A DNA stretch of 38,901 nt, from positions 1 through 38,901 of the forward strand of contig NZ_CATNVC010000018.1 in NCBI RefSeq assembly GCF_951230135.1, in the 5' to 3' direction. The notes under the pieces were generated by a model that saw only the letters and a list, made by a program, of their open reading frames with translations, did no database searches and was not told where the DNA came from. Of this stretch, positions 17,084 to 38,706 are shown piece after piece (the stretch's first letter is position 1; the number at the start of each line of letters is the position of its first letter). This DNA is from Butyricicoccus sp. Marseille-Q5471. Lineage in GTDB: Bacteria > Bacillota > Clostridia > Oscillospirales > Butyricicoccaceae. The translations under genes were made by a program, and so were the position numbers.

Positions 17084-17655
17084 GGTTCGGTGTGCTTTAT
17101 TTAGATCCCCCATGGGCGTACAAGGTCTACTCCAAAAAGGGCGAAGGCCGCAGCGCCGAGAACCATTACCGCACCATGAACGCCGAGGATATTTACAATC
17201 TTGATGTGAACGGAATAGCGGATAAAGATTGTGTGCTGTTTCTATGGGTGACATTCCCCTGTTTGCTGGAGGGGCTGGAAGCTATTCGACGCTGGGGTTT
17301 TGTTTATAAAACTCTCGGTTTTTGCTGGGTCAAGCGGTGTAAGAAGCAGACGCACAAATGGTTTTGGGGACTTGGCTTCTGGACGAGAGCCAACCCGGAG
17401 CTGTGTCTGATTGCCACAAAGGGAAAACCGAAGCGGTTATCAAAAGCGGTTCATTGCCTTCTGGATACGCCGGTGGAACGGCATAGTAAAAAGCCGGACG
17501 AAGTTCGCCGCCGTATTGAACTGCTTATGGGAGATATACCTCGTGCGGAGCTGTTTGCCAGACAGCGGCATGACGGTTGGGTGTGCCTTGGCAACGAAAT
17601 CGACGGCCTTGATATTCGGGAGGCGATTACGAAACTGAAAGAAACGGAGGAATGA
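17080..17655 (+). CDS. MT-A70-family N6-adenine DNA methyltransferase
   Basis: A 191-aa protein with the MT-A70 catalytic motif LYLDPPWAY (DPPW at residues 9-12). It also has CVLFLWVTFPCLLEGLEAI, ANPELCLIATKG and a C-terminal RPDEV-like KKPDEVRRRIELL region typical of the family. It methylates adenine N6, probably to protect element DNA. It starts at the ATG overlapping the stop of the truncated cytosine methylase, so it depends on transcription through that region. It looks complete. Confidence 0.88.
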   Translation: MRFGVLYLDPPWAYKVYSKKGEGRSAENHYRTMNAEDIYNLDVNGIADKDCVLFLWVTFPCLLEGLEAIRRWGFVYKTLGFCWVKRCKKQTHKWFWGLGFWTRANPELCLIATKGKPKRLSKAVHCLLDTPVERHSKKPDEVRRRIELLMGDIPRAELFARQRHDGWVCLGNEIDGLDIREAITKLKETEE

Positions 17656-22034: not shown

Positions 22035-23129
22035 ATGGCGAGAAAGAGCAGACAAAACGCTATTGCCGCTTCTCTAAGCGGAGTAGCGACAGAAAGCGTT
22101 GCTTTACCGGAGCGAATTTATAATACGGCTATTTATGTGAGACTTTCCGTAGAAGATAACAATTATGGCGCAGAAAGCGAGAGCATTCAAAACCAGCAGC
22201 TTATGCTGGAACGCTTTGTAAGTGAGCAATCAGATATGCGGCTGTGCCAGATATTCTGCGATAATGGATTTTCAGGCACAGACTTTGAGCGTCCCGATTT
22301 TGAAAAGATGATGGATGGAGCCATGGCAGGGCGGATCGACTGTATTGTAGTCAAGGATCTGTCCCGTTTTGGCAGAAACTATGTGGAAGCCGGTTATTAC
22401 ATCGAAAAGACCTTTCCTACCATGGGAGTACGATTTATAGCGATGTATGATGGTTATGACAGCCTTACAGATGATGGAAGCAATTCCATGATTATTTCGC
22501 TGAAAAATCTAATCAACGATTTTTATGCCAAGGATATTTCTCGAAAAATCAATACTTCCTTGGAAACAAAACAGCGAAAGGGCGAGTTTATCGGTGCTTT
22601 TGCCCCCTATGGTTACAAGAAATCACCCGAAGATAAACATCAGCTTATTCTTGATGAAGATACGGCACCTATCGTATACCAGATTTTTCAGTGGAAGGCA
22701 CAAGGGATTGGAAATACTACTATCGCTCGAAGGCTCAATGAAGCCAATGTGGTATCACCCTCACTATATTTATATCAAAAGGGCGAAATCCAAAAGAAGC
22801 CCAAAAATGAACTTTGGCAGGGGCAAATGATAAAAGTTCTTACGGATAATCCTATCTATACAGGCGTAATGGCACAGGGTAAGACCAAGAAGGCACTTTG
22901 CGACGGACTCCCAACCACAAAGGTTCCCCGTTCTGAGTGGATTGTAGTTCCCCATACCCACGAAGCCATCATAGACGAGGAAACCTTTGAGAAGATTCAG
23001 CAGCAAAAGGAACAAATCCGACAGCAGGCTGTAGCGTTAAGGGGAAAGTATGATAAGCATGGGAAAAAGGAGAATATTTTCGCAGGACTGTTATATTGCG
23101 GAGATTGTCACACAAAGCTGGTACGCTAA
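22035..23129 (+). pseudogene. Large serine recombinase 2, C-terminally truncated
   Basis: The N-terminal catalytic domain is intact: IYVRLSVEDNN with the likely nucleophile Ser38, FSGTDFERPDF, and VKDLSRFGRNYVE. The recombinase domain is also present (FAPYGYKKSPEDKHQLILDED). It stops at CGDCHTKLVR, just inside the zinc ribbon, where sequence of a third recombinase is joined out of frame. The coiled coil needed for regulated integration and excision is missing. ATG 22035 follows the upstream stop directly (GGAGGTGGTCTAA-ATG), indicating that the recombinases formed one operon. Confidence 0.85.
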
Positions 23130-24096
23130 GATAGCGGTTCTTTTGAATAAAGAAAAGATACCTTCACCACTGGCTTATCGCAAACAGAACGGTACAGACC
23201 TTGACCGTGGGTGGAAAGTGGCGGATGACCGCCTGTTATGGACACGATTTGCTATCAAGCGGATTCTTTGTGATGGGCGATACACCGGGAAATTGGTTAG
23301 CTATAAACGGACAAAAGCGGATGTATCAACAAAGCGAACAAAGGTGAATCCAAAATCAGAATGGATTGTTGCTGCGGATACGCATGAGCCGATTGTAACA
23401 CAAGAGCTATTTGAAAAAGCTGGTGTTTGGTTTCCAAAGAGGGAAAATTGGCGCAAAACTGTTCCATCCAGAGGGTATCCGCTGACTGGGATTTTAAAGT
23501 GTGGGTATTGCCATCATAATCTGACCCGTGCCAGTGTAAAACTGCCCTATTATCACTGCTACATGGCTAAGTATGAAGAAAGCACTCCATGCAGTACAAT
23601 CAAAGCAATGGAAACGGCATTTAGTGATATTCTGCTTGCCATCATCAACAAGCAGGTTAGCATGGTACTTCGTGATGGTAGAAATCCTTCGGAGTTCACC
23701 TTGACCAACCATGAACGGATACAAAGTCTGCAAAAGGAAATCCAGCTCAGACAGCAGGAAATTGAAAAGTTTCGTGTAGCTAGGAAAAATGCCTTTGAAG
23801 AATATTGCTTTGAACACATTTCAAAAGAGCAGTACGCAGCAATGCTCGAAGCCAATACCCAGCAGATGAACCTGATTTCAGAAAAACTCAAGGAACTGCA
23901 AACAGAATGTTCCTTGCTTACAGAAGATAAGCAGGAAACTGAGTATCAGCAAGTCCACCAAAAGTATGAGTTCGCCGATCAGCTTACCAAAGATATGGTG
24001 CTGGCCTTTGTGAAAGAGATTTCTGTATTTGAGGATGAACGATTTGAAATAGTGTGGAATTATGAGGACTATTATAAAATGACAGACCTGTTGTAG
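23127..24096 (+). pseudogene. Large serine recombinase 3, N-terminally truncated
   Basis: Only the middle and C-terminal parts survive: AKIAVLLNKEKIPSPLAYR, RFAIKRILCDGRYTGKLVSYKRTK, a zinc ribbon (CGYCHHNL and the paired C), a coiled coil (QKEIQLRQQEIEKFR) and a C-terminal EDERFEIVWNYEDY. The whole resolvase domain is gone. The join with recombinase 2 lies within about five bases of GGTACGC (23120-23127), so a deletion fused two neighbouring genes, possibly by recombination between related recombinase genes. The open frame upstream to 23050 is out-of-frame recombinase 2 sequence. Confidence 0.82.
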
Positions 24097-24306: not shown

Positions 24307-24375
24307 AATACCCGTATCAAAACAGCCAGCGTCAGCCAAATCATTGCTGAAGCTGGCTGTTTTGATACGGGTATT
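24307..24375. repeat. 23-bp perfect inverted repeat between recombinases and defence operon
   Basis: AATACCCGTATCAAAACAGC-CAG (24307-24329) is exactly complementary to 24353-24375. The 23-nt loop itself contains TCAGC/GCTGA, so a long single hairpin forms. There is no adjacent T-run. The remainder of 24097-24425 holds no convincing gene. The hairpin sits precisely between two DNA segments of different base composition. It could be a recombination site, an old transposon end or a bidirectional terminator. Confidence 0.75.
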
Positions 24376-24425: not shown

Positions 24426-24454
24426 TTGACAATTTAAACTTTGTGTTTTATAAT
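24426..24454 (+). promoter_or_regulatory. Perfect consensus sigma-A promoter of the defence operon
   Basis: TTGACA (24426-24431), exactly 17 bp, then TATAAT (24449-24454). It is the only clear promoter before the XRE gene, and the following seven genes are closely packed, so it probably drives the whole operon. Such a strong promoter next to a regulator gene suggests repression by that regulator. Confidence 0.88.
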
Positions 24455-24471
24455 TACAATATAATGTTTCA

Positions 24472-24495
24472 AATGTAAAGGCGAATGTAAAGGTG
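24472..24495 (+). promoter_or_regulatory. Tandem 12-bp repeat, candidate operator of the XRE regulator
   Basis: AATGTAAAGGCG and AATGTAAAGGTG are directly adjacent, differing at one base. They lie between the -10 box and the start codon of the XRE gene, and the second copy contains the ribosome site. The position fits autorepression by the encoded regulator. Confidence 0.5.
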
Positions 24496-24502
24496 ATAGT
24501 AG

Positions 24503-24712
24503 ATGACTATATCAGAACAAATTAAGGTTTTGTGTGTTCGTTCCAATATAAGCGTATCTGAATTGGCACGGAGAGTAGGTACTTCTCCGCAGAATTTTAA
24601 TGCAAAAATGAAGCGTGAAAGCTTTACAATTACAGAATTAGAATTGATAGCAAGTGCCGTAGAAAGTAAATTTGAGCGTAATTTTGTACTTGAAAATGGT
24701 GATAGAATTTAA
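24503..24712 (+). CDS. XRE-family helix-turn-helix regulator (69 aa)
   Basis: A small Cro/CI-type DNA-binding protein. The helix-turn-helix is visible as ISVSELARRVGTSPQNFNAKMKR (about residues 16-38), followed by FTITELELIASAVESKFERNFV. AAAGGTGAT precedes the ATG. It is the first gene of the defence operon, transcribed from a perfect sigma-A promoter and preceded by a tandem 12-bp repeat, so it is probably the operon's (auto)repressor. XRE-like regulators are common in front of defence systems. Fourteen bases separate it from the short leader ORF that follows. Confidence 0.85.
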   Translation: MTISEQIKVLCVRSNISVSELARRVGTSPQNFNAKMKRESFTITELELIASAVESKFERNFVLENGDRI

Positions 24713-24726
24713 GGAGAATGCATTTA

Positions 24727-24831
24727 ATGAATGTTATTAAGTATAACGAATTTCCTTATGTTCAGGATCAAAACTGCTCAAATACAAATTTTAGAATACT
24801 TGAGCAAGGGGATTGTTATGAAGAGAGATAG
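24727..24831 (+). CDS. 34-codon leader ORF overlapping the methylase start
   Basis: The ATG at 24727 has a good AAGGAGA about 9 nt upstream. The ORF encodes MNVIKYNEFPYVQDQN and ends with TAG at 24829-24831, so it overlaps the start of the cytosine methylase gene (ATG 24818) by 14 nt in a different frame. The methylase has only a modest CAAGGGG site of its own. The arrangement suggests translational coupling that sets methylase output. I recognise no domain, and it may have no function as a peptide. Confidence 0.45.
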   Translation: MNVIKYNEFPYVQDQNCSNTNFRILEQGDCYEER

Positions 24832-26077
24832 TCTGAATTTTATAGATTTATTTGCTGGAGCAGGGGGACTATCCGAAGGTTTTATGCAGAAAGGATTTAA
24901 TCCAATTGCCCACATTGAAATGAACCAATATGCAGCAATGACCTTAGAGACAAGAAGTATATATTACTTTTTAAAAAAAGTTCGCAGATTAAATGTCTAT
25001 TATGACTATTTAAGAGGTGATATTACACGAGCACAACTGTTGGAAGCAGTTCCTCCGCAGGTATTGCAAACAGTAATTTGTGAAGAAATGTCTACAAAAA
25101 CGATTTTTAATATTTTTGAGCAGATTGATTTAATTATGGAACAGGATGGCATAAATCATGTTGATGTGGTTGTTGGAGGTCCACCATGTCAAGCATATTC
25201 TCTTGTAGGCAGAGCACAAAGTAAACATATGGACACTCCGATGGAGCAAGACCCGAGAAACGAACTTTACAAAATGTACACTAGGTTTTTAACAAAATAC
25301 CAGCCTAGGATGTTTGTATTCGAGAATGTAGCAGGAATAAAAACTGCAAGAAATGGAGCGGCATTCAGGAACTTGCAAAGCCATCTTAAGCGAGTTGGAT
25401 ATGTAATTGAATATAGAGAACTGAATGCAAGTGGCTTCGGGGTTCTTCAAAATAGAAAACGAATGATTATTATTGGATGGAGAAAAGGAACAGATTTTAG
25501 ATATCCGGATTTCCCTATCGTAAATTCACACGCCATAGTGAGTGACCTGTTGGTGGATTTACCCGCATTGGAGAGAGGTCAAACCTTAAATGAGTATCGG
25601 CCTAATGTACCGATTAATCAATATCTGAGACGATTTAGAATTAGAACTGAACATGATGTTCTTACGCACCATGTCTGCAGACCGAATACGGATAGGGATG
25701 TAGAAATTTATAGACGGGTAATTGAACTTTGGAATGACAATCATAGTCGACTAAATTATAATCACCTACCAGAAGAATTGAAAACGCATAAGAATAGATC
25801 ATCTTTTGTTGATAGGTTTAAGGTTGTTGAGGGTGATATGCCATATTGCCATACTGTCTTGGCACATTTATCTAAGGATGGGCATTATTTTATTCATCCA
25901 GATATAGAACAATGCAGGTCAATTTCCGTAAGGGAAGCAGCAAGGCTACAGTCTTTTCCTGACAGCTATTATTTTGAAGGTCCACGGACAGCTCAATTCG
26001 TGCAGATAGGAAATGCAGTTCCTCCACTTATGGCAAAAGGAATCGCAACACAAATAAAAGCACTTTTAGATGATTGA
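24818..26077 (+). CDS. drmMII: C5-cytosine DNA methyltransferase (DrmMII-like)
   Basis: A 419-aa enzyme from ATG 24818. The ORF is open from 24731, but the extra residues do not resemble the family. All key motifs are present: FIDLFAGAGGLSEGF (motif I, residues 8-22), VVGGPPCQAYS (catalytic Cys, about 124), FVFENVAGI, QNRKRMIIIG (motif VIII) and QIGNAVPP (motif X, about 396). It transfers a methyl group to cytosine C5 in a specific site. C5 methylases (DrmMII) belong to class 2 DISARM, where they mark host DNA; here the enzyme opens an operon with class 1 components. The recognition sequence cannot be read from the protein. Confidence 0.85.
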   Translation: MKRDSLNFIDLFAGAGGLSEGFMQKGFNPIAHIEMNQYAAMTLETRSIYYFLKKVRRLNVYYDYLRGDITRAQLLEAVPPQVLQTVICEEMSTKTIFNIFEQIDLIMEQDGINHVDVVVGGPPCQAYSLVGRAQSKHMDTPMEQDPRNELYKMYTRFLTKYQPRMFVFENVAGIKTARNGAAFRNLQSHLKRVGYVIEYRELNASGFGVLQNRKRMIIIGWRKGTDFRYPDFPIVNSHAIVSDLLVDLPALERGQTLNEYRPNVPINQYLRRFRIRTEHDVLTHHVCRPNTDRDVEIYRRVIELWNDNHSRLNYNHLPEELKTHKNRSSFVDRFKVVEGDMPYCHTVLAHLSKDGHYFIHPDIEQCRSISVREAARLQSFPDSYYFEGPRTAQFVQIGNAVPPLMAKGIATQIKALLDD

Positions 26078-26091
26078 ATTAGGGAGATTCT

Positions 26092-28692
26092 ATGGATAAC
26101 TTACTGATAAGGGAATACGGTAAAATCAAACGTCAAGAACTAAATACTAACCCATACAGCTGTCTTGATTCTGAAAAAATTGATATTAACCCACATCAGA
26201 TAGAAGCTTTTATGTTTGCACTTTCTGCTATTCGCACAGGGGGTGCGATTTTAGCGGATGAGGTTGGCCTTGGCAAAACAATTGAAGCAGGTCTTGTGTT
26301 GAAGTATTTATTGAAAAACGGTTACAAAAAAATATTGCTCATTATGCCAGCCAGTCTTAGAAAACAATGGCAAATAGAACTTGAAGAAAAGTTTTCTATT
26401 GATACAGTTATCATAGATAGTCAAAACTTTGACTCTTATTACGAATTTTCAAAGAGAGAACATGGTGTGTTAATCACTTCTTACAATTTTGCTGCAAAGA
26501 GAAGAGACCTTCTTTCTAAGATATCTTGGGATTTCATGGTCTTTGATGAAGCACACCGCTTGCGGAATATCCATAAAAATAGTAGCAAAACTGCAAATAA
26601 GATATATGATCTTTCAAAAGGTATTCCCAAGCTAATGCTGACAGCTACGCCAATGCAAAACACGTTGCTGGATATGTTCGGTTTAGTGCAGTTTATTGAT
26701 GATAAAATTTTTTTAGATAAGCGTGTTTTTAGCCAAAAGTATATTAAAAATCAAGACTACGCAGAACTCAAGATTATGCTTGAACCTGTTTTGCAAAGAA
26801 CACTTCGTAGCGAGGTTGCGGATTATCTTCAGTTTAAATCAAGAATAGGTATTAGTGTAGACTTCTCGCTTACTCCTATGGAGGCTATATTATATAAGCT
26901 TGTTAATGATTATCTAAAAAAAAATATATTGTATGCCATCCCCTCTTCAAACCGTAGCTTAATTACAATTGTAATTCGTAAGTTATTAGCATCTTCCAGT
27001 TCTGCTGTTGTAAATACATTTGAGGTTTTAAAAGAGCGTTTGCAGAAGCTGAAAGAAACTACAAGAACGGAATCAGTAGATAAGAGTCTTGATTATTTCT
27101 TTGATTTTTTGGATGATGATTTTGATGAAGAAGAAGCAGAAACAGAAGAGACAGTAGAACTTTATGACAGAGATAAGGTTAATGAATTTATCCAGCATGA
27201 AATAGATGAGGTTGATGAAATTATAACAGTTGCGAATAAAATAAAAACCAACGCAAAGTTGAATGCTTTGAAAAAGGCAGTACAGATTGCATTTAGCAGA
27301 CAAAGAAAAATGGGCATCAGTGAAAAGGTTGTTGTGTTTACAGAATCTGTTAGAACCCAAAGTTACTTATTTGAAGAACTATCTGTATTAGGGTATGATG
27401 ACTCTATGCTCATGTTTAACGGCAATATGTCTGATAACAAGACGAAAGAAATATATCGCGCATGGAAATCGAAAAACTACGGTAAAGATTTAGGCAGCCG
27501 AAGTGTTGAAATTAAAAATGCTATTGTGGAGACTTTTAAGAACGATTATAGAATCCTGTTGGTTACTGATTCTGGTTCAGAAGGTTTGAATTTGCAATTT
27601 TGCAATACTGTAATCAACTATGACTTGCCCTGGAATCCACAGCGAATTGAGCAAAGAATCGGCAGATGTCATCGGTACGGGCAAAAAAATGATGTAGTTG
27701 TAATTAATCTTCTCAATACAGAAAACGTAGCGGACAGACGAGTCTATGAGATTTTATCCCAGAAGTTTGAACTATTCCAAGGTGTATTCGGTGCTTCGGA
27801 TAAGGCAATCGGTCTTTTGGAAAGTGGGGAGAACTTTGAAAAACGTGTTCTACAGATATACCAGCAATGCAAAAATCCAACTGAATTCAATAAGGAATTT
27901 AAAATTTTGGAAAAAGAGCTGGAAAGAAAACGTAATGCGAAATTTCGGGAACTAAAAAACTTGATATCAAAGGCATCAGAAGAAGCACACAAACAAGAAT
28001 TGCAGGAAATTTTTGTTGAAGTCAACCGCTATTTTGAGGATAAAACATTTTGGACAAGCATTCCAAATGATATCTCGATTGCACAATATCCCATTGCTTA
28101 TAAAACGAATAATATAGGCATAAATGATGAGGTACGGCATGGACATATAATCATTGGAGGATTCTATAACAAGCAAGAGTTGTTATTTCCAATATTGGAA
28201 GTGCTTGATCTTAACAATAACCGTGTTTTATTAACGGAGGGTGATGTCATTCAGATGCTATCATCCTTAAGTGACGAGGATTTAGAGAAACAGGATCTCG
28301 ATCAAAGCCTTGTGGTGGAATTCAGTAATGCTATTTTTGATGAAAAATTACGGAAATATCAAAATAGTTACCAAAAGCTTGTTTTGAGGAACAATATAAA
28401 AATAGATAACTGGGTTGCACTTCGTTGCGATGGATATAACTTGCAAATAAATGAATTTAAAACAAAACTGGATGAACTGAACTCTGTATACATAGAAGAA
28501 AAGAATTTTAAGGCGAAGATTGAAATTAAAAAACAAATGGAGCAACTTAAGCAAAAGCAGGGTGAGATGAGCTTTAGTTTCCATGAATTCACAGCAGAGG
28601 TGCAAGCTGAAGCTACAGAAATGAAGCTGGCGTTTGAAAAACAGTTCGCCATAGAACCAATGCTTATAGCAAAAATAGTGGTACAATTTTGA
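26092..28692 (+). CDS. drmD: SNF2-family helicase (DrmD-like)
   Basis: An 866-aa RapA/SNF2-type ATPase. ILADEVGLGKTIEAG (Walker A, about residues 54-68), FDEAHRLRN (about 152-160), LTATPMQN (motif III), GLNLQFCNTVINYDLPWNP and RIGRCHRYGQ (motif VI, about 522-531) are all intact. An Asp/Glu-rich insertion (about 340-365) and a coiled-coil C-terminal half (EEKNFKAKIEIKKQMEQLKQ) follow. SNF2 proteins translocate along DNA. DrmD is the class 1 DISARM signature helicase, and the context supports that assignment. A stand-alone RapA-like helicase attached to the type III pair is the alternative. The gap to the methylase is 14 nt. Confidence 0.8.
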   Translation: MDNLLIREYGKIKRQELNTNPYSCLDSEKIDINPHQIEAFMFALSAIRTGGAILADEVGLGKTIEAGLVLKYLLKNGYKKILLIMPASLRKQWQIELEEKFSIDTVIIDSQNFDSYYEFSKREHGVLITSYNFAAKRRDLLSKISWDFMVFDEAHRLRNIHKNSSKTANKIYDLSKGIPKLMLTATPMQNTLLDMFGLVQFIDDKIFLDKRVFSQKYIKNQDYAELKIMLEPVLQRTLRSEVADYLQFKSRIGISVDFSLTPMEAILYKLVNDYLKKNILYAIPSSNRSLITIVIRKLLASSSSAVVNTFEVLKERLQKLKETTRTESVDKSLDYFFDFLDDDFDEEEAETEETVELYDRDKVNEFIQHEIDEVDEIITVANKIKTNAKLNALKKAVQIAFSRQRKMGISEKVVVFTESVRTQSYLFEELSVLGYDDSMLMFNGNMSDNKTKEIYRAWKSKNYGKDLGSRSVEIKNAIVETFKNDYRILLVTDSGSEGLNLQFCNTVINYDLPWNPQRIEQRIGRCHRYGQKNDVVVINLLNTENVADRRVYEILSQKFELFQGVFGASDKAIGLLESGENFEKRVLQIYQQCKNPTEFNKEFKILEKELERKRNAKFRELKNLISKASEEAHKQELQEIFVEVNRYFEDKTFWTSIPNDISIAQYPIAYKTNNIGINDEVRHGHIIIGGFYNKQELLFPILEVLDLNNNRVLLTEGDVIQMLSSLSDEDLEKQDLDQSLVVEFSNAIFDEKLRKYQNSYQKLVLRNNIKIDNWVALRCDGYNLQINEFKTKLDELNSVYIEEKNFKAKIEIKKQMEQLKQKQGEMSFSFHEFTAEVQAEATEMKLAFEKQFAIEPMLIAKIVVQF

Positions 28693-28702
28693 GGAGGACA
28701 AT

Positions 28703-30250
28703 ATGCAGAAAAAAGGAAGGCTGGAGTTGACTTGGGTCGGAAAATACGACGAAGAAAAGCTGGAACCAAGAATTCTGGTTGAAGATAAGACAAAATCATA
28801 CGGTGACACTAATACTGAAAATATGCTTATCCACGGGGATAATTTGTTATCATTAAAAGCACTTGAACAAGATTTCGAAGATAAAATCCAATGTATTTTT
28901 ATAGACCCTCCCTATAATACAGGAAGTGCCTTTGAACAGTATGATGATGGTGTGGAGCATTCGATTTGGTTATGTATGATGTATTCTCGCTTAGAAATCA
29001 TGAAAACACTATTAAGCCAAAAAGGTTCTATTTGGATTTCAATAGATGACAACGAGTGTCATTATCTAAAAGTTATGTGTGATGAAATATTTGGTCGCAA
29101 AAATTTCTTAGGAACGATTATTTGGGAAAAATCAGACAGTCCAAGAATGGACGCTAAAATTTTTTCATCTAGACATGATAGTATTTTAGTATATGCTAAA
29201 GATGTTAATTCCGTAAAAATTAATAAAATTATTATTGAAGATGAAGCTTCATTAAAACATTATAACAAAACAGACAAAGCTGGAAAGAAGTATTATCTGA
29301 AGCCTTTAAGAGCGATTGGACCAGAGAGCACACGAGAGGCTAGACCAACGTTATATTATGGGATTATTGCACCTGACGGAACAGAAGTGTTTCCTAAAGC
29401 TCCTGATGGTTCAGATGGCAGATGGAGATGGAGCAAGGAAAGAGTAGAGCGAGATATTGATAAAATTGAGTGGATAAAGGGAAAAAAAGGTTGGTCTGCA
29501 AATTATAAGATTTATGCTGAGGCTAATCCTACAAAGCCCCCAGAGACAATATGGACCCATGGAGAATGTGGGAGCAATAGAATTTCCAAATTAGAAGTAA
29601 GAGACTTTGTAATAGATGGTGAAAGACCATTTGATACTCCTAAACCAGAGAAATTAATTCAACGAATTCTTTCAATAGGTAGTGATGAAGGGGAACTGGT
29701 GCTCGACTCGTTTTTGGGGTCTGCAACCACAAGTGCTGTAGCTCATAAAATGAATCGCAAATGGATAGGAATTGAACTAGGTGAACATTGTTATACGCAC
29801 TGTATTCCAAGAATGCAAAGAGTTGTTGATGGTGAACAGGGCGGAATTTCTCAAAATGTAAATTGGCAAGGCGGTGGCGGCTTCAAATTCTATGAACTTG
29901 CAGAACCATTGCTAGTTAAAAACAAAGTTCTCCCTATTTATCAGCTGAATTCATGTTACACCTTTGACATGGTGGTGGAAGCAATCTGTAAAATTGAGGG
30001 CTTCAAATACAGTCCCATCGGTGAATTCCACGGATTCTCTTCCGAAAATAGATTTATCCATGTTACCACAGAGTTTGTAAACAGTAAGTACATTATGTCT
30101 CTTATGAAATCTTTGGGAGAAAATCAATCACTGCTGATTTACTGCACAAAGCTACAGAGGGATATGAATATCCCAGATAATATAGAAGTGAAAAAAATAC
30201 CTAAGGATTTACTGAAAAAATGTAATTTTAAAAGTGAGGTGGAACAATGA
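28703..30250 (+). CDS. mod: Type III restriction-modification Mod subunit (adenine methylase)
   Basis: A 515-aa beta-class amino-methyltransferase with motif IV first: IFIDPPYNTG near residues 65-74, and motif I late as VLDSFLGSATTSAVA near 333-347. This order is typical of Mod proteins. A region of about 200 residues between them carries the target-recognition function. The C-terminal part (from about 375) has the Mod-type tail. GAGGAGGA precedes the ATG. The stop overlaps the Res start by 4 nt (ATGA). Mod both recognises DNA for Res and protects host sites. In this operon it occupies the position of the class 1 DISARM methylase DrmMI, but it belongs to the Mod family. Confidence 0.86.
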   Translation: MQKKGRLELTWVGKYDEEKLEPRILVEDKTKSYGDTNTENMLIHGDNLLSLKALEQDFEDKIQCIFIDPPYNTGSAFEQYDDGVEHSIWLCMMYSRLEIMKTLLSQKGSIWISIDDNECHYLKVMCDEIFGRKNFLGTIIWEKSDSPRMDAKIFSSRHDSILVYAKDVNSVKINKIIIEDEASLKHYNKTDKAGKKYYLKPLRAIGPESTREARPTLYYGIIAPDGTEVFPKAPDGSDGRWRWSKERVERDIDKIEWIKGKKGWSANYKIYAEANPTKPPETIWTHGECGSNRISKLEVRDFVIDGERPFDTPKPEKLIQRILSIGSDEGELVLDSFLGSATTSAVAHKMNRKWIGIELGEHCYTHCIPRMQRVVDGEQGGISQNVNWQGGGGFKFYELAEPLLVKNKVLPIYQLNSCYTFDMVVEAICKIEGFKYSPIGEFHGFSSENRFIHVTTEFVNSKYIMSLMKSLGENQSLLIYCTKLQRDMNIPDNIEVKKIPKDLLKKCNFKSEVEQ

Positions 30251-32919
30251 GCGTTATCAGTAAAATAAATTGGGCAATGAGTCTGCGTGAACCACAGTTT
30301 GAGGCCTTGCAGTACTTTGATGCTATCAGTTCCAACCTTGACTATAAAACAACCACAAGAGAAAACGCAGAAAAGCTTGCTAACGAAAATTGCGAAAATA
30401 AAAAAGATATTAAGGTGGATAGAGAGTTCCATTTTCCTTCTTTTTGCTTTGATATGACCACAGGGATTGGTAAAACGCGGTTAATGGGTGCAACTATATA
30501 TTACCTGTACAAAACTAAGGGGTACAAGCACTTTTTTATTCTTACTCCAGGCAATACGATTTATGATAAGCTGAGAAAAGAAACTGTCCCCAGCCATCCG
30601 AAATATATGTTTAAAGGCTTAGAGGCCGAAATGGGTAGACCGAAAGTTTATGATGGCGAGAATTATTTATCCTATCCGGTAAAATATGAGCAGGGTGAGA
30701 TCGTATTAGAAAGGACTTCTGAAATTCAGTTGTTTATTTTTAATATTGGTAAGATTTTTACTCGTGGTGATGTGAATTTTAAATTTCACGATTTTAATGA
30801 GAACTTGGGCGGATCTTTTGCAGATGTGTTAAAAAATTTTGACGACCTTGTTATTTGTATGGACGAGGCACATCGCTATTATGCACCTGCATCTATGAAA
30901 GCTATCGACTATCTGAATCCTATTTTGGGTTTAGAATTTACAGCTACGCCTAAAGACAGTAACAAAAACATTATATATCGTTATGATCTTGCCAAAGGTG
31001 CTGGGAAATATCTGAAAATTCCAGTCGTAATGGGCAGAACGAACACAGCAGGATATTCTGCAGATGACATTGAGGAAATGAAGCTAAAAGATGGTATCAA
31101 ACTACATGAACGCCGAAAAGCCGTGGTGTATAAGTATTGTGTGGATAACAATTTGGAGCAAGTAAAACCAATTGTGTTAGTTGCTTGTAAGGACACGACG
31201 CACGCAAAGAAAATACGAGAAAAAATTGATTCGGATTCTTTCTTCGGCGGCAGATATGTTGGTAAGGTTATTCAGATTGACTCCAGCACTGGAAGTGTTG
31301 AAACGGAGGAGAACATCCAAAAACTGCTTACCATTGAGGAAAACACGAATCCTATCGAAATTGTTTTACATGTTTATAAGTTAAAAGAAGGATGGGATGT
31401 AAACAATCTATTTACCATTATCCCATTAAATGCAGCAAAAAGTGATATTTTGGCATTGCAAACCATTGGTCGTGGGCTTCGTCTGCCTTTTGGACAGATT
31501 ACTGGTGTTGAGGAAGTGGATACTCTAGATATTGTTGCGCATGATCATTATCGTGAAATCATTGATGATATTAAGGATAATCCTATTTTCAGGAACAAAG
31601 ACCTTGATAAAGAGGATATTCCAGATACAACATTGGTAGAAATCAATATAAGCTTTGAAAATGAGCAGCTATCATTGGTTGATACCGCTATCCAAGAAAC
31701 AAAGGTTAAGTCTTTTCAAGATTTCAATGATGCACGGACAGTTGAAAGTATGTATAAGTCTTATTTGTCTGAGTATGCAAAGAAAATAACTGCTTCAAAT
31801 AGTACAAAAAGTACGCAAGGTCAATTATCACTCTTTGACCTTGGAACTACCATAAAGGCCGATACTGAAACGCAAACGAAGACATTGGGTGATTCAAGCA
31901 AAGTTACTGAGGCACCCGTATCTAATAAAACAAAAAAGACAATAACTCCTGCACTGAAAAAAGAGGAATTTGAGCAGAAGTTAAAACAGTTGTCGCAGGT
32001 TGCAATTTCAGTACCCAAAATCAGCATCAATTACAGTTCCACTATAACATTCAAGCCTATTAACGTTAAAAAAAATCATATGGAGTTTGATGTAGCGGCA
32101 TCTCAAATAGAAAGATATGACGTTATCAATGAAAGGCTTTTATCTGTCGTGGAAGCGGATGCGTTAATAGAAGATGAGCCGGAAAACGCTCTTGCCTGTA
32201 TGCTCCTTGAGGAGATACCTGAATTTAGTGCAGATGATGCGGAGTATATCCTTGATGTAGTAAATCAGTATATGTCGTTAATCGAGGGCGATTACGAGCA
32301 AAAGAAAAAGGTCATCAGAAGATATGCAACGGTCATTATCAATGATTTAAAGAAACAGATATATGCTGCAAAAGAGGAACACACCGAGTTTGTACATCAA
32401 GTTCAGAAAGACTTGATTTTATTTGGCAGATTTATTAAGAACATGAAAGTTGACGGCAGAGTTAATTTTAAGAAAGAAGTTGACGATAAAAAGAACATTC
32501 GCCAGTATCTGTTTGAAGGGTACAAAAAATCGTACTATCCAGAAAATTCTTTTGACAGCGATGATGAACGTAGATTTGCCGTAATTCTGGAAGATGACTC
32601 GGAAGTATTAAGGTTTATTAAGCCACCGTTAAATCAGCTTGGTCTTTTTTATAAGGCGGGCAAACAATATAATCCAGATTTCTTGGTAGAAACAAAAGAT
32701 ATGAAATATATGATCGAAGTCAAGGCTTCTAATCGCACTGCTGACGAAGATGTTCTTGAAAAGGCTTATGCTGCAATTAAGTGGTGTGAATGTGCCACAA
32801 GTGTCGATTCCGATTCAAAAGTTTGGCATTTTAGGCTGATACCCGGAGAGGATATTGTAATAGGTAGTTCATTTAAATATACGGCAGGTCGAGCTGTGGT
32901 AATAGAGGAGGAACTATAA
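30247..32919 (+). CDS. res: Type III restriction Res subunit (helicase plus nuclease) with clamp-binding motif
   Basis: An 890-aa SF2 translocase: MTTGIGKTRLMG (Walker A, about residues 68-79), ICMDEAHRYY (about 202-211), EFTATPKD (about 230) and QTIGRGLRLPFG (motif VI, about 405-416). The C-terminus carries a PD-(D/E)XK nuclease (NPDFLVETKDMKYMIEVKAS, about 808-828), so cleavage ability appears intact. In a low-complexity linker (about 515-570) lies QLSLFDL, which matches the bacterial sliding-clamp-binding consensus. It is translationally coupled to Mod. Two bases separate it from drmA, so the type III pair is embedded in the DISARM operon. Confidence 0.87.
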   Translation: MSVISKINWAMSLREPQFEALQYFDAISSNLDYKTTTRENAEKLANENCENKKDIKVDREFHFPSFCFDMTTGIGKTRLMGATIYYLYKTKGYKHFFILTPGNTIYDKLRKETVPSHPKYMFKGLEAEMGRPKVYDGENYLSYPVKYEQGEIVLERTSEIQLFIFNIGKIFTRGDVNFKFHDFNENLGGSFADVLKNFDDLVICMDEAHRYYAPASMKAIDYLNPILGLEFTATPKDSNKNIIYRYDLAKGAGKYLKIPVVMGRTNTAGYSADDIEEMKLKDGIKLHERRKAVVYKYCVDNNLEQVKPIVLVACKDTTHAKKIREKIDSDSFFGGRYVGKVIQIDSSTGSVETEENIQKLLTIEENTNPIEIVLHVYKLKEGWDVNNLFTIIPLNAAKSDILALQTIGRGLRLPFGQITGVEEVDTLDIVAHDHYREIIDDIKDNPIFRNKDLDKEDIPDTTLVEINISFENEQLSLVDTAIQETKVKSFQDFNDARTVESMYKSYLSEYAKKITASNSTKSTQGQLSLFDLGTTIKADTETQTKTLGDSSKVTEAPVSNKTKKTITPALKKEEFEQKLKQLSQVAISVPKISINYSSTITFKPINVKKNHMEFDVAASQIERYDVINERLLSVVEADALIEDEPENALACMLLEEIPEFSADDAEYILDVVNQYMSLIEGDYEQKKKVIRRYATVIINDLKKQIYAAKEEHTEFVHQVQKDLILFGRFIKNMKVDGRVNFKKEVDDKKNIRQYLFEGYKKSYYPENSFDSDDERRFAVILEDDSEVLRFIKPPLNQLGLFYKAGKQYNPDFLVETKDMKYMIEVKASNRTADEDVLEKAYAAIKWCECATSVDSDSKVWHFRLIPGEDIVIGSSFKYTAGRAVVIEEEL

Positions 32920-32920
32920 T

Positions 32921-35900
32921 ATGGTAGATGAATTGGCATTCAAATATGCAAAGGCAAGGGAAGAAATTCTTAAAGCGGTCCGTATGGATTTAATTGGACC
33001 CCAAGGCGAAAATGAAGAATTGGATGAAATGCCTACCAACAGCTATATTACGGGTATGCTATTTCCTTCTGACGCCGAAATGTCAGAAGACGAGAATTAC
33101 AATACGCAAAACTTTGAAACGGATTTCAAAGAGGACAACGATACAGGCACCATTATGGAAGATGTTGATCCGGATGACAACAAACCGAAGGGTGGATTCA
33201 AAAAGCAATCTTCCTTGGGCGTATCTTGCTATGTCAGTTCCGAAACTACAAAGCTAAATATAAACATTGCTTGGGGCAGATATGAAAAAGAGTCCGTAAA
33301 AGTGATGGCCATGGTTAAAGGCATAGAAAAAGAGGTAAATAAGACTCTGTATATTAGAGAACAAGAAAACGATACGCTTACCATTGATCTACAGTCGTTT
33401 GATAGGTTTACTAAAATCCCTCTCAACATAGATCCACACTTAGTTATTCATATTATTAAGGTAAACTTGGAAAATCATAACACTATGCTTTCCGTATATC
33501 TGTATAACCAACGTCCAAATGGCGATAACGAAAAAGAATATGAGAAAGTTCTTTATCAAGTTGAAATGACGCTATATGATAACAAGCAATCCCCTGTTTT
33601 TCTGCCTGAACACAAATGCAGAAAACTTGAATTAGAGGATGAGTATTATTACGAAAATCGAGCAGTGTATGCCAGAGGTCGCGGATGTGCTGCAACATGG
33701 GAGAAGACAACGGATTCAGAAAATGCAATTGTGATAAAGAGTGTGTTTATTCCAGACTATGAAATTAACGGAGTTAGCCCTAATATACCTGATTTTAATA
33801 AAAACATGTTTTCGATGCGCTTTATGTCATTATCAAAAAACAGGGCAGCAACGATTGAACGTCTTTCTATCCTTTCTAATCTGTATAAAAAATGGATTGG
33901 AGATCTGAATGATAGTTCTCATATGGAAAACTCATCTTTTATACCCAAAGGACAGAAAATTATAGCAGAATGCCAAACCGCACAGCAAAGAATTCAAAGA
34001 GGCATAAACTTGCTTGCCACCAATGATAATGCTTTTGAGGCGTTTTGCTTTATGAATCAAGCAATGTATATGCAAAGAAGCATTTCTATGTTTGGGAAGA
34101 AGAACAGTCAAGGTATATCTTGCAGCTTAAGCGATTTTACGAAAGAAGATCACAGTGAATGGCGTCCTTTCCAGATTGCATTTGTCCTTTTGAATTTGTA
34201 TGGTTGTATTGAGCCAACCTCCGATGAAAGAAAAAATGTAGATTTGTTATATTTCCCTACGGGAGGCGGCAAAACAGAAGCTTACCTAGGATTGATTGCA
34301 TTTGTTATAGGATATCGTAGGCTGACCGCATCAATGTGCGATGAATATGAAAAAGATGGCGGCGTAACAGTGTTTTTGAGGTATACCTTAAGACTTTTGA
34401 CCACTCAGCAGCGCGACCGTTTAATGAAGCTGATTGTTGCGGCGGAAATGCTCCGAGAAAAACACCCGGAATTGTATGGTAAAAGCAAAATTTCCATCGG
34501 GTTCTGGGTTGGTGGTGGCGTTACACCTAATAATTTCAGCGATTATGATGACCGTGAGAAACGGAAAGACTTCATGCGAAAAGTATCAAAGCAAGTAATT
34601 GTATGCCCTTGCTGTGGGAAAACTATTGAGCAATCCGATTACGAAGTGGATTCTAAGTTACAGACTGTAAAAATTACGTGTTCTAACAACAAATGCTATT
34701 TTTACAAGCATAACAACCATACACTACCTGTATATCTTGTTGACAGTGAAATCTATAGAAAGTGTCCTACTGTAATCATTTCTACTGTTGATAAATTTGC
34801 AAGATTGCCATGGGATGAGAAAACGGGATTACTTTTTGGAAATTCGGACAGGTATTGTGCCAGATGCGGATATATTGCTAAGGGAGAAGAACACAAAAGC
34901 CGACATAATAAGACGGCTGACCTCCCAAGAGTTGATGTTGTTGATGTTAAACCGTTCTATCCTCCAGAACTGATTATTCAAGATGAGTTGCACTTAATTA
35001 CAGGACCACTAGGGACTATTTATGGTGGTTATGAAAATATTGTTGAAGAATTATGCGCCATAACTCAAGGCAATAAAAAAACTTTGCCAAAGTATATTGT
35101 CTCTACGGCAACAATCAAAAATGCCGGGGAACAAATAAGGTGTTTGTATGGTAGAAATTGTTATAGCCAATTTCCACCGAGTGGATTTGATATTCGGGAT
35201 TCGTATTTTATCAAGGAAATTCCCCTTGAGGACAAACCTTTTAGAAAGTATGTTGGCATTTGTGGTAATGGGCAATCAGTGAAGACCACATTACTTCGCA
35301 CCTACTCTATTATTCTTGAAACAGTGTTTAATTTATCTAGACAGGAAGAATACAAGGATTTCATTGATCCTTATTATACCTTAATTGGCTATTTTAATAG
35401 CATCAGAGAACTTGGCGGTGCAGTACGTTTGCTTGAGGACGATATTAAGAGCCGAATAGAACGGTTACAGAAAAAGTATGGACATGAAATGCAAAGATAC
35501 CTTAAGAGAACCAAGGAAATTACATCTCGAATTCAGTCCTATGAAATTGCAAAAATACTGGAAGAATTGACAACGCCATACGACAATAATAAAGCGGATA
35601 ACAAGCAGGATTGTTATGATGTAGTTATCGCAACAAATATGATTGCGGTAGGAATGGACGTTGACAGATTAGGTTTGATGACGGTCGTTGGCCAACCAAA
35701 ACAAAACGCTGAATACATTCAGGCAACAAGCCGAGTAGGACGTAGTTTCCCAGGCATCGTATTCACGGTATACAATCCATACAGGCCACGAGACTTGTCT
35801 CACTATGAAAATTTTGAAGGTTTCCATTCGCAATTGTATCGTTATGTAGAAGGCACAACTGCAACACCTTTCTCTGCAAGAGCAAGAGATCGCGTGCTTC

Positions 35901-36280
35901 ATGCAATTGTTGTGGCTTTGTTAAGGCTGCAAAATGAACAAATGGCCCCTAACACAGGTGCTAATGAAATTGGGAATATTTCGGAATCCACTTTGAAGCA
36001 AGTCAAAGCGGAAATATTAAGCAGAGTTAAGATCGTTGCGCATAAGGCGTATTACGATGTGGAAAAGGAAATCGACCTGTTCATTGAAGACTGGAAAACA
36101 CTGAGTACCGAAGAAAAGACACTTACATATTTTACAAGTGATGTAGGCTTAGAGCGATTCAATCGTTTGCTGAATTATTATGATAAATTCTGCACCCCAA
36201 AGGAGAAGCCAACACTTAACTCAATGCGTGAAGTCGAGCGGGCATCCACCATATATTATTTTAACGAGGAGGATAACTAA
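32921..36280 (+). CDS. drmA: DISARM helicase DrmA
   Basis: A 1119-aa SF2 helicase, core component of all DISARM systems. FPTGGGKTEAYLG (Walker A, about residues 444-456), IIQDELHLITGPLG (motif II as DELH, about 684-697), ATNMIAVGMDVDRLG (motif V) and QATSRVGRS (motif VI, about 932-940). Cysteine clusters between motifs (CPCC...C...C about 563-590, YCARCG about 644) look like zinc ribbons. The N-terminal 400 residues are acidic and specific to the family. DrmA binds and translocates on DNA; known DISARM work places it in a complex with DrmB. GAGGAGG precedes the ATG, and drmB follows without a gap. Confidence 0.9.
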   Translation: MVDELAFKYAKAREEILKAVRMDLIGPQGENEELDEMPTNSYITGMLFPSDAEMSEDENYNTQNFETDFKEDNDTGTIMEDVDPDDNKPKGGFKKQSSLGVSCYVSSETTKLNINIAWGRYEKESVKVMAMVKGIEKEVNKTLYIREQENDTLTIDLQSFDRFTKIPLNIDPHLVIHIIKVNLENHNTMLSVYLYNQRPNGDNEKEYEKVLYQVEMTLYDNKQSPVFLPEHKCRKLELEDEYYYENRAVYARGRGCAATWEKTTDSENAIVIKSVFIPDYEINGVSPNIPDFNKNMFSMRFMSLSKNRAATIERLSILSNLYKKWIGDLNDSSHMENSSFIPKGQKIIAECQTAQQRIQRGINLLATNDNAFEAFCFMNQAMYMQRSISMFGKKNSQGISCSLSDFTKEDHSEWRPFQIAFVLLNLYGCIEPTSDERKNVDLLYFPTGGGKTEAYLGLIAFVIGYRRLTASMCDEYEKDGGVTVFLRYTLRLLTTQQRDRLMKLIVAAEMLREKHPELYGKSKISIGFWVGGGVTPNNFSDYDDREKRKDFMRKVSKQVIVCPCCGKTIEQSDYEVDSKLQTVKITCSNNKCYFYKHNNHTLPVYLVDSEIYRKCPTVIISTVDKFARLPWDEKTGLLFGNSDRYCARCGYIAKGEEHKSRHNKTADLPRVDVVDVKPFYPPELIIQDELHLITGPLGTIYGGYENIVEELCAITQGNKKTLPKYIVSTATIKNAGEQIRCLYGRNCYSQFPPSGFDIRDSYFIKEIPLEDKPFRKYVGICGNGQSVKTTLLRTYSIILETVFNLSRQEEYKDFIDPYYTLIGYFNSIRELGGAVRLLEDDIKSRIERLQKKYGHEMQRYLKRTKEITSRIQSYEIAKILEELTTPYDNNKADNKQDCYDVVIATNMIAVGMDVDRLGLMTVVGQPKQNAEYIQATSRVGRSFPGIVFTVYNPYRPRDLSHYENFEGFHSQLYRYVEGTTATPFSARARDRVLHAIVVALLRLQNEQMAPNTGANEIGNISESTLKQVKAEILSRVKIVAHKAYYDVEKEIDLFIEDWKTLSTEEKTLTYFTSDVGLERFNRLLNYYDKFCTPKEKPTLNSMREVERASTIYYFNEEDN

Positions 36281-38032
36281 ATGAATTGGAACAAGCTAGG
36301 AGAAGTTAGACCGAATCAGTTAATTACGACTTATGGCCCCGGCTCTATTATGGACGCAAAGAACGACTCGGTAACAGTTCTGGATATTGATTACTGGAGA
36401 GATACCGGGAAAACAATTATTGATAACCGCCTTGCGAATTACTTGGGAGTTTATAATTTCAAAACCCCTAAAACAACAGAATATGATGATATTCCGGTGG
36501 TGTCGTTTCCTTATTATCATGTATGTGCAAATTCCAAATGCAACGCCCTATTTGATATACGTGATGGATTTGATAGAGATAAATACATAAAAGACAAGGG
36601 GCCAAAATGCCCTTATTGCGGCTGGGATGCGTATCCTGCAAGATTTATTACTGCCTGTGAAGACGGGCACATGGATGATTTTCCTTGGTCACGATGGGTA
36701 CACAGAGGTGACTCAACTTGTACAGGAAGGTTGAAACTATATTCTACAGGTAGAACGTCTTCATTGGGTGAAATGTTTGTTGAGTGTTCATGTGGTGCTA
36801 AAAGAAGTATGGCTGGTGCTATGCAGCGCGAAAATCTGGATGGCTTGGTCTGCTCAGGTCATCACCCTCATCGTCCATTGGATCAGAATAAAAAGTGCAA
36901 AAAGTTAGCTATTCCATCTCAAAGGGGTGCGTCAAATGTCTATTTTCCTGTAATTCGCAGTGCAATTTCTATTCCACCGTGGACTAACCCTATTAATGAT
37001 ATTATCAATGCCAATCGCAAGGTGATCGAGTCATATGAAGAAGACTTTGGGGAGGTCGGTTTGCAAAAGGTATATGAAAAATATTTTGCAAGTAAATTTA
37101 CAAGACAAGAATTTGATGAGGCGTATATAAGAATTAAAAACAAAATTCAAGAGTTTTCAGAAATCAAGGAGATGGAATACGCTGCAATTGTAAATCATAC
37201 GGACTTAGCTTATCAGCGAGATGTTAAGTACTTCAAGGCAGAAGAAGTAGATATTAATAACGGCTTGAATAGGTATTTTTCCCGTATTATTAAAATCCAT
37301 AGACTGCGAGAGGTTATGGTTTTACTGGGGTTCATGCGGATGGAAGCACCAGAACCTGAAGTTGATGACCCTAATCATATCTGTAAACTTAACAAAAAAG
37401 CAGGACATGAGTCTTGGTTGCCTGCTGTTGAGATAAATGGTGAAGGTATTTTCGTTGAATTTAATAAAAACCAAATTTCAAAGTGGATGAGTACACCAGA
37501 GGTGATGGCTCTTTCTGATAAGTACAGAGACTATTATAATGAGTTTTGCAAAAGCAAAGGATGGACGATGTACAAAGAAAGAAATGCGGAATATGTTCTC
37601 TTGCACACGTTCTCTCATATTTTAATCAAAGAGATGGCTATGCAATCGGGGTATTCATCCACAGCTATCAAAGAGAGAATATACAGCAGTAATGCAATGT
37701 GCGGTGTTCTGATTTACACTGGTAGTTCTGACAAAGAGGGGTCTCTGGGTGGATTGGTTGAGTTAGGTGAAATGGACAAGTTTTTGCTACTGTTAAAAGA
37801 GGCTCTTCAAAATGCTCTCACCTGCACGACCGATCCTGAATGCTTTATGAATTTGCCGACAAAAGACAGAATAAATGGTGCTGCGTGCCATTCTTGTACA
37901 ATGATATCAGAGACAGCTTGCGAAAATGGGAACAGACTGCTTGATAGAGCATTAGTGGTTCCGGTACCGGAAAGGGAATCTTGTGGCTACTTTAGAGAAT
38001 TGGTGAATGAATTATGTGGCACGAAGATTTAG
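36281..38032 (+). CDS. drmB: DISARM protein DrmB (DUF1998)
   Basis: A 583-aa protein starting with the characteristic GEVRPNQLITTYGPGSI. It has several cysteine pairs (CANSKCNALF and CPYCGWDAYPARF; ECSCGAKRS; ACHSCTMISETAC near 548-560), probably zinc-binding. The DUF1998 domain is at the C-terminal side (YVLLHTFSHILIKEMAM about 446-462, GVLIYTGSSDKEGSLGGLVEL about 478-498). DrmB forms the DrmAB complex, in which it stimulates DrmA. The start immediately follows the drmA stop, with GAGGAGG at the end of drmA. It overlaps drmC by 19 nt. Complete length. Confidence 0.92.
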   Translation: MNWNKLGEVRPNQLITTYGPGSIMDAKNDSVTVLDIDYWRDTGKTIIDNRLANYLGVYNFKTPKTTEYDDIPVVSFPYYHVCANSKCNALFDIRDGFDRDKYIKDKGPKCPYCGWDAYPARFITACEDGHMDDFPWSRWVHRGDSTCTGRLKLYSTGRTSSLGEMFVECSCGAKRSMAGAMQRENLDGLVCSGHHPHRPLDQNKKCKKLAIPSQRGASNVYFPVIRSAISIPPWTNPINDIINANRKVIESYEEDFGEVGLQKVYEKYFASKFTRQEFDEAYIRIKNKIQEFSEIKEMEYAAIVNHTDLAYQRDVKYFKAEEVDINNGLNRYFSRIIKIHRLREVMVLLGFMRMEAPEPEVDDPNHICKLNKKAGHESWLPAVEINGEGIFVEFNKNQISKWMSTPEVMALSDKYRDYYNEFCKSKGWTMYKERNAEYVLLHTFSHILIKEMAMQSGYSSTAIKERIYSSNAMCGVLIYTGSSDKEGSLGGLVELGEMDKFLLLLKEALQNALTCTTDPECFMNLPTKDRINGAACHSCTMISETACENGNRLLDRALVVPVPERESCGYFRELVNELCGTKI

Positions 38033-38706
38033 GGATAGATGTAATCGTTCAAACGTTAAAGGATGAAATTGAGCAGTATAGACTTTTGAATGCGACAGAT
38101 GCGTTTAAAAAATCCTTAATTTTAATTCAAAAAAAGTTTCCAAACTGTTCATCCGGAGAAATTATGGATATATTACAGATGGCTTGTAAGCTATATGCTT
38201 GTACTTCAGGTGAACAATGTGAATTGGTAATCACAGCACCTAGTAGTTTCAAACTGAAAGCACGTAAAACTAAAGTAGTAGTAAATAATATTTTATTATA
38301 CGCAGAAAGAAACATTACATTAACAGGATATTCAATTTCTGAATATTTTGGTGAAATGATAGAACTAATTATTCAGAAAAGTACACAAGGAGTTTATGTC
38401 AATCTCTATTTAAATGATACTCAAAAACACCAAGATGTCATTGAACGACTAAGTACTTATGCAAGCAAATTTATAAAAATATTTAGCTACAACCAGCAAG
38501 ATGGTGATAAGATGTCAGCATTACATGCAAAGCTGATTGTCGTGGATGGACATACTTCATTAATATCGTCTGCCAATCTCTCATATCATGGGATGCAAGG
38601 CAATGTTGAAATGGGTGTATTGATTGAATCACCGGAAAAAGCACGAGAAATTGAGTCATTGCTTAAAACATTAAGAGAGCAAAAGGTATTTAAAAAACTC
38701 AGATAA
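38014..38706 (+). CDS. drmC: DISARM phospholipase D-family protein DrmC
   Basis: A 230-aa protein with one PLD (HKD) motif, HAKLIVVD followed by SSANLSYHGMQGNVEMG (about residues 170-195). A single motif implies a dimeric active site. The N-terminal 60 residues are helical (SGEIMDILQMACKLYA). DrmC is the third DISARM core gene; in known systems it was found dispensable against some phages. PLD-family members include nucleases. The ATG at 38014 lies within the drmB 3' end. No terminator is evident after the TAA, and 38707-38774 holds no gene. Confidence 0.86.
   Translation: MWHEDLGIDVIVQTLKDEIEQYRLLNATDAFKKSLILIQKKFPNCSSGEIMDILQMACKLYACTSGEQCELVITAPSSFKLKARKTKVVVNNILLYAERNITLTGYSISEYFGEMIELIIQKSTQGVYVNLYLNDTQKHQDVIERLSTYASKFIKIFSYNQQDGDKMSALHAKLIVVDGHTSLISSANLSYHGMQGNVEMGVLIESPEKAREIESLLKTLREQKVFKKLR

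Follow-up and report, generated by a model that had tools for sequence, protein, structure and literature searches.

Defence island system associated with restriction-modification (DISARM) operons are defined in PADLOC by DrmD with DrmMI (class 1) or by DrmE with DrmMII (class 2), in the part of the source that gives the rule (PMC9252829). Unmethylated DNA raises the activity of the DrmAB ATPase and 5-methylcytosine (m5C) reduces it, unmodified 5'-overhang DNA has been proposed as the DISARM trigger, DrmC is dispensable, and the route of DNA degradation is called a mystery (cited sections of PMC9142583). In the type III restriction-modification enzyme EcoP15I, the middle domain of the methyltransferase (Mod) is the DNA-reading part, and one of the Mods touches the restriction subunit (Res) extensively through its C-terminal domain, as described in the cited part of PMC4490356. 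Here, a stretch of 38,901 nucleotides from Butyricicoccus sp. Marseille-Q5471 (contig NZ_CATNVC010000018.1; the whole stretch is called the window) was analysed. It carries what is probably a composite anti-phage operon, in which a DISARM core and a complete SNF2-Mod-Res system, placed between DrmMII and DrmA, are inherited as one unit.

DISARM with a built-in type III system was not recognised in the literature searches, and the supplements of Ofir et al. 2018 may list such operons. Bell et al. 2025 mention 'many uncharacterized DISARM-like' classes, and this operon type is not described in the sections of that paper available here (PMC12458937). According to the same sections, ARMADA resembles the window operon in having a YprA-like helicase, a BrxHII/RapA-like helicase and an adenine methyltransferase, but its methyltransferase is PglX-like and its helicase is typically one protein instead of DrmA plus DrmB (PMC12458937). 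In Cutibacterium, a type III system is located in an island that breaks a DISARM, in a different arrangement (relevant part of PMC7365801). As far as the available parts of the sources extend, bacteriophage exclusion (BREX)-related systems (PMC12839542) and MORC operons (PMC2292703) differ, and no DISARM is reported in PMC13335696.

Composition and class of the operon

The original prediction had described one tightly packed operon encoding a helix-turn-helix (HTH) protein, a C5 methylase, a SNF2 helicase, Mod, Res, DrmA, DrmB and DrmC, and the family scores and coordinates bore this out: all eight genes are on the + strand within 24426-38706 (Table 1). The HTH gene is 18 bp from DrmMII. The seven genes from DrmMII to DrmC (24731-38706) are separated by at most 14 bp (DrmMII-SNF2, 14 bp; SNF2-Mod, 10 bp; Res-DrmA, 1 bp; DrmA-DrmB, 0 bp) or overlap by 4 bp (Mod/Res, ATGA) and 19 bp (DrmB/DrmC). 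The G+C content is 0.32-0.40 for the operon genes (0.35-0.40 for the six large genes) and 0.48 for the first 24 kb of the window; by this measure the operon is foreign to its neighbourhood and its genes are alike among themselves. The following motifs were found: PPCQ at 151 in DrmMII, GLGKT at 59 and DEAH at 152 in SNF2, DPPY at 68-71 in Mod, TGIGKT at 72, MDEAH at 205, QTIGRGLR at 405 and P810-D811-x12-E824-x-K826 in Res, and HxKx4D at 171 in DrmC.

The core common to any DISARM class is present, with DrmA, DrmB and DrmC together; DrmC is called by PADLOC only and scores 113 bits on the NCBIfam DrmC model (cut-off 133). The class 2 marker DrmMII is also present. DrmE was not seen in the operon, as had been predicted: no DrmE family was shown for the seven operon proteins (at most 25 per protein, of up to 61) and there is no room between the genes, the rest of the genome not having been searched. 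No DrmMI was seen among the 25 of 51 families shown for the adenine methylase, with the same restriction to the operon, and the best family is a type III Mod. The PADLOC families, the 4-bp overlap and the retained nuclease motif also support the proposed coupling of a type III Mod to a potentially cutting Res; the Mod and Res genes with intact motifs make a type III system, and the family SNF2 gene followed by Mod and Res on one strand makes a SNF2-Mod-Res system.

It had further been claimed that a DrmMII-like C5 methylase stands beside a DrmD-like SNF2 helicase, in a hybrid of classes 1 and 2. The methylase was retained (554 bits), but the identity of the helicase as class 1 DrmD was not: it scored 254 bits on NF038317 (cut-off 610), is 24-26% identical to the class 1 DrmD proteins of loci L146 and L147, and belongs to a separate clade, both DrmD proteins being remote in a 101-protein SNF2 tree. 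On this identity and tree distance, descent of the SNF2 gene from class 1 was rejected; its family is mostly found beside Mod-Res, and the hybrid was abandoned. Judged by its protein families, the operon combines a DISARM core that has a class 2-type methylase with a SNF2-Mod-Res restriction system, and does not mix classes 1 and 2.

Like class 2 DISARM, the window operon has DrmMII, DrmA, DrmB and DrmC, and its DrmMII is 61-62% identical to those of the class-2-like loci L196 and L197 and 42% to that of L145; it differs by the lack of an evident DrmE and by the SNF2 and Mod-Res genes between DrmMII and DrmA, and the DrmA proteins of the window and L196 share about 34% identity. Like class 1 DISARM, it has DrmA, DrmB, DrmC and a SNF2-type helicase ahead of an adenine methyltransferase, but this enzyme is a 515-aa type III Mod and not the MmeI-like methyltransferase of 1342-1484 aa of L146 and L147, and Res and the C5 methylase are additional. 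The likeness to EcoP15I and its kin extends to the Mod DPPY motif and middle DNA-reading segment, the superfamily 2 (SF2) motor and PD-ExK motif of Res, and the overlapping genes, but in the window the pair is joined by a SNF2 motor and placed inside DISARM.

In the class-2-like L196 (7869-12207) and L197 (6593-10958), two proteins, of about 860 and about 590 aa, are encoded in the slot between DrmMII and DrmA; in L196, the locus that was scanned, the second of them matches NERD-UvrD. This slot varies among DISARM operons.

Recurrence and rarity

The seven-gene order is shared by five other loci: L021/L120 (same genus), L023/L205 (Anaerovibrio sp. RM50), L141/L204 (from a genome in a single contig), and L103 and L104 (IMG/VR contigs). 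Their proteins are identical to those of the window at 63-65% (DrmMII), 44-57% (SNF2), 49-60% (Mod), 57-68% (Res), 50-55% (DrmA), 59-63% (DrmB) and 39-42% (DrmC). Since the same order is found in five other loci at 39-68% protein identity, Mod-Res is no one-off insertion, and because distantly related operons show this combination too, it looks like a genuine composite immune system rather than an accident of a single genome.

In three more operons (L022, L024 and L125), SNF2 directly precedes DrmA and a different type III pair is located directly upstream of DrmMII. The upstream Mod of L024 belongs to the PADLOC type III family PDLC03645; for the Res of that locus no PADLOC family was obtained at 1e-20. 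PF04851 (56-58 bits) is present in each of the three upstream Res. Hidden Markov models (HMMs) from the embedded and the upstream pairs separated both kinds, the operons themselves being among the HMM source proteins. A type III pair therefore accompanies each complete operon with this SNF2 (9/9: six inside, three upstream and unrelated), and this count is not an artefact of Res queries, because SNF2-based searches alone reach all nine. Operons were counted once: L115 equals L023 (100% over 19.5 kb), L123 duplicates L126 (99.9%), and L124 and L126 are L103 and L104 by contig name. The truncated L123 and L139 were not counted, and DrmC of L024 is cut by the contig end.

The operon type is rare in the genomes sampled. 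Matches to NF038318 above the cut-off were obtained in 3 of 394 genomes of an order sample, 2 of 398 of a phylum sample and 2 of 189 of the order of genome G776 (the samples share genomes), and DrmA (NF038325, E up to 1e-100) was present in 18 of the 398. At 1e-10, neither Mod nor the family SNF2 was found at 17 other DrmA loci (from the 16 phylum-sample genomes besides the window and G776), several of which are cut by contig ends; near two of the 17, a Res-like helicase gave a weak match (50 and 55 bits). A Res profile gave 1884 bits for the window, 1873 for genome G021 and at most 443 in every other of the 394 order genomes. Eight plasmid DISARM loci contained no Mod and no Res, and three of these, all annotated drmD, gave low scores on the SNF2 profile (88-180 bits). 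Phage records contained no match to Res. Viral contigs scanned for DrmA gave no hit, which is weak evidence because the scan missed three such operons that occur in those contigs.

Descent of the operon genes

The SNF2, Drm, Mod segment and whole-length Mod trees were quick trees, and seven short rows were left out of the SNF2 tree. The nine operon SNF2 proteins form one clade (Shimodaira-Hasegawa-like approximate likelihood ratio test, SH-aLRT, 100), divided into the window with L023 (99) and the rest (100); those of L022, L024 and L125 form a single subclade (100) within the rest. The six embedded Res also form one clade (100/99), within the stand-alone Res family, and the upstream Res are distant. 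The window and L023 were grouped in the SNF2, Res, DrmA, DrmB, DrmMII and Mod C-terminus trees; L021 and L103 in the SNF2 (80), Res, DrmA and Mod C-terminus (84) trees and not in that of DrmB; and L104 and L141 in the SNF2, DrmA, DrmMII and DrmB (88) trees, and weakly in that of Res (89/69). In the DrmA tree only L022 and L024 are grouped (94), and the placement of L125 is left open. On these trees, the simplest reading would be that the embedded pair was the earlier one and disappeared on a single occasion, an unrelated pair being gained upstream.

Mosaic structure of Mod

Identity between the window Mod and the five other embedded Mods is 64-72% at the C-terminus (aa 381-515), where five chosen stand-alone Mods reach 37-46%. 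In the middle segment (aa 181-305) the window Mod is 50% identical to that of L103 and 13-25% to those of the other four embedded Mods. The same segment of L021 resembles the stand-alone L116 and L041 (66-68%), and that of L023 resembles the stand-alone L043 from Alistipes (76%). The six embedded Mods make one clade (SH-aLRT 100) in a C-terminus tree of 40 Mods and are scattered in the middle-segment tree of the same 40, with five changes, at least three of them required by starred branches; the five changes were no fewer than under shuffled labels in 124 of 500 shuffles. The Mod is, by these alignments, a mosaic: the predicted Res-contacting end descends with the operon, and the predicted DNA-reading domain resembles those of stand-alone systems. 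Such a pattern should be expected of a type III system that changes its target while keeping its Res partner.

The SNF2 family outside DISARM

Loci were collected from one scan (the best 80 of 560), one viral-contig scan and genome searches. The census comprised 78 complete loci outside DISARM, of which the 53 with at least 8.5 kb downstream were assessed (only 3 remain if 9.5 kb is required). Both Mod and Res were located downstream on the same strand in 44 of the 53 (26 of the size seen in the window operon and 18 of a larger kind), neither gene in 9, and one alone in none. Among the nine, L061 and L084 have the pair directly upstream, L134 has it on the other strand, L085 has a Mod further on, and five have none. 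L105 and L106 were found by a Res query, and leaving them out gives 42/51; the SNF2 proteins of L130 and L131 are identical. Four of the short loci L107-L114 were extended as L116-L119; L112-L114 were left out. In plasmid records, no match extended over 80% of the SNF2 query.

Three-gene SNF2-Mod-Res systems of both size classes were observed in many phyla and on plasmids (L026, L031, L034, L037, L040, L044, L058, L066, L069, L077, L105, L106 and others), and no name for them was found in the literature searches. They share the three-gene order with the window operon, but contain no DrmA in the fetched stretches and their Mod C-terminus differs from that of the embedded Mods. The NCBIfam name DISARM_DrmD_b shows that the tie of the SNF2 family to DISARM is already catalogued; the stand-alone relative in L026 scored 687 bits on NF038318 (cut-off 950) and 676 bits on the PADLOC DrmD model. 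A model of the window SNF2 had a mean predicted local distance difference test (pLDDT) of 82.7, with RapA as the best structural match.

The predicted nuclease of Res

The motor and nuclease motifs are intact in all six embedded Res, and P810, D811, E824 and K826 are invariant in the 22 Res aligned (4 embedded, 18 stand-alone). The best solved match of the whole Res model is EcoP15I Res, and the helix-strand run at 772-866 of the model is read as a PD-(D/E)xK-like fold. The nuclease domain of EcoP15I Res is disordered in the crystal (cited part of PMC4490356), so the predicted nuclease assignment rests on the motif.

Alternative readings and proposed mechanism

Several points weigh against the composite reading. 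Genes that share an operon need not form one machine. In Res, the Pfam endonuclease domain scores under its cut-off (20.3 vs 23.4), and the Res model is moderate (pLDDT 72.8, predicted template modelling score 0.48). The sister group of the nine operon SNF2 proteins consists of seven that were classed as lacking Mod-Res (join 97, within 80, long branches), so SNF2 need not have arrived with Mod-Res. The DrmMII proteins of the nine operons are only weakly one clade (79), and no particular type III pair is required, since three of the nine operons lost the embedded pair.

The strongest rival, rather unlikely but a serious contender, is that DISARM and the type III system are two independent defences under one promoter, additive and without mechanistic contact. 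Stand-alone SNF2-Mod-Res without DISARM and DISARM without SNF2-Mod-Res both exist, so each half can work alone, and three operons carry a pair of an unrelated family. Independence is opposed by the type III pair in every complete operon, the embedding of the genes with gaps of 1-14 bp, and the branches uniting the window with L023 and L021 with L103, which are common to SNF2, Res, the Mod C-terminus and DrmA. It is far less probable that Mod merely replaces DrmMI as the self-mark of DISARM, with Res turned into a non-cutting sensor or motor: Mod-Res does occupy the position of the adenine methyltransferase between SNF2 and DrmA in the class 1 loci L146 and L147, but the four nuclease residues are invariant in 22 of 22 aligned Res. 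A recent chance insertion or an assembly error, which could be suspected because the window is a whole 38.9-kb contig whose end is 195 bp from that of the operon, was rejected as scarcely credible, the order being repeated in five other loci, one in a single-contig genome, and the G+C being even.

The composite operon is accordingly preferred. The condition under which the original prediction was to fall, Mod-Res in this genome only and with signs of recent insertion, is contradicted by the five further loci and the even G+C of the six large genes. The suggested name of a distinct DISARM subtype is a fair one: Mod-Res is built in, no DrmE is seen, the Res motif is kept, and other loci have the same arrangement. 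The sequences themselves show which genes are present and in what order, their recurrence, the intact motifs, the matching descent of SNF2, Res, the Mod C-terminus and DrmA, and the exchange of the Mod DNA-reading domain; the mechanism that follows is a proposal. Mod would set N6-methyladenine at an asymmetric site and DrmMII would set m5C, both on host DNA. Mod-Res, aided by the SNF2 motor, would move along unmarked incoming DNA and cut it. Type III enzymes leave short 5' overhangs. DrmAB, as an unwinding machine restrained by methylation, would load on unmarked DNA or on the new ends and unwind it, and DrmC may be a further nuclease; the type III part would thereby supply a second mark and a cutter. 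Res need not be the dedicated cutter of the original prediction, as the phospholipase D-type nuclease DrmC is also encoded. More tentatively, with the odds slightly against it, the type III pair may be obligatory but exchangeable, giving the second self-mark and a cutter that feeds ends to DrmAB, and its specificity may be renewed through exchange of the Mod DNA-reading domain, across phyla, with stand-alone SNF2-Mod-Res systems.

Layout of the locus and flanking mobile region

Table 1. Features of the operon region, with positions in the window
Feature	Position	Strand	Evidence or remark
Promoter-like site	24426..24454	+	TTGACA-17-TATAAT, sigma-70 consensus 12/12
Small Cro/C1-type HTH gene, 69 aa	24503..24712	+	probably regulator
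DrmMII, cytosine-5 DNA methyltransferase	24731..26077	+	PADLOC PDLC02649, 554 bits
SNF2/RapA-like motor, NCBIfam 'DISARM_DrmD_b'	26092..28692	+	NF038318, 1233 bits (cut-off 950)
Mod, type III adenine methyltransferase, 515 aa	28703..30250	+	PDLC03636, 572 bits; beta class by motif order
Res, type III restriction subunit, SF2 motor and C-terminal PD-x12-ExK	30247..32919	+	PDLC03648, 376 bits
DrmA helicase, short form	32921..36280	+	NF038325, 1269 bits (cut-off 950)
DrmB, MrfA Zn-binding domain (formerly DUF1998)	36281..38032	+	NF038324, 589 bits (cut-off 240)
DrmC, phospholipase D-type nuclease, single HxKx4D motif	38014..38706	+	PADLOC PDLC02616, 291 bits

Over the whole region, 56 promoter-like sites were counted and the mean of shuffles was 52.7, so that the total is not raised. 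The HTH gene is present in one of nine other subtype loci, the near-copy L139, and was rejected as a conserved part of the subtype. For DrmMII, a start at the inner ATG at 24818 is likelier, because homologues align from about residue 32-36.

The neighbourhood contains conjugation genes, ParA/ParB, tyrosine integrases and serine recombinases. Of three serine recombinase genes at 20520-24096, two are CcrB-like and one is without the resolvase domain; the near-copy L139 has about 1.2 kb extra (2494-3714 of that locus) at window 23128/23129. An inverted repeat (24307-24375; 30-nt arms, 97% complementary, 9-nt spacer) lies between the recombinases and the operon promoter. Three consecutive tyrosine integrase genes are found at 12766-15765. 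Further methyltransferases are encoded at 8456-12685 (a 1409-aa protein with an N6 methylase domain), 15902-17083 (a C5 methylase piece) and 17080-17655 (an MT-A70 protein). On the - strand, 4532-5773 encodes a 413-aa GTPase that resembles the first part of tetracycline ribosomal protection proteins (458 bits, cut-off 775) and looks incomplete.

Implications

In the best reading of its sequence, the operon would be a new DISARM variant with two predicted DNA marks and its own motor-nuclease. With a restriction nuclease and the matching mark built in, gene deletions within a single operon can be used to test how marking, unwinding and cutting are connected. In addition, since the relatives of the protein catalogued as 'DISARM DrmD b' mostly adjoin type III genes, annotation based on DrmD models may confuse stand-alone SNF2-Mod-Res systems with partial DISARM.

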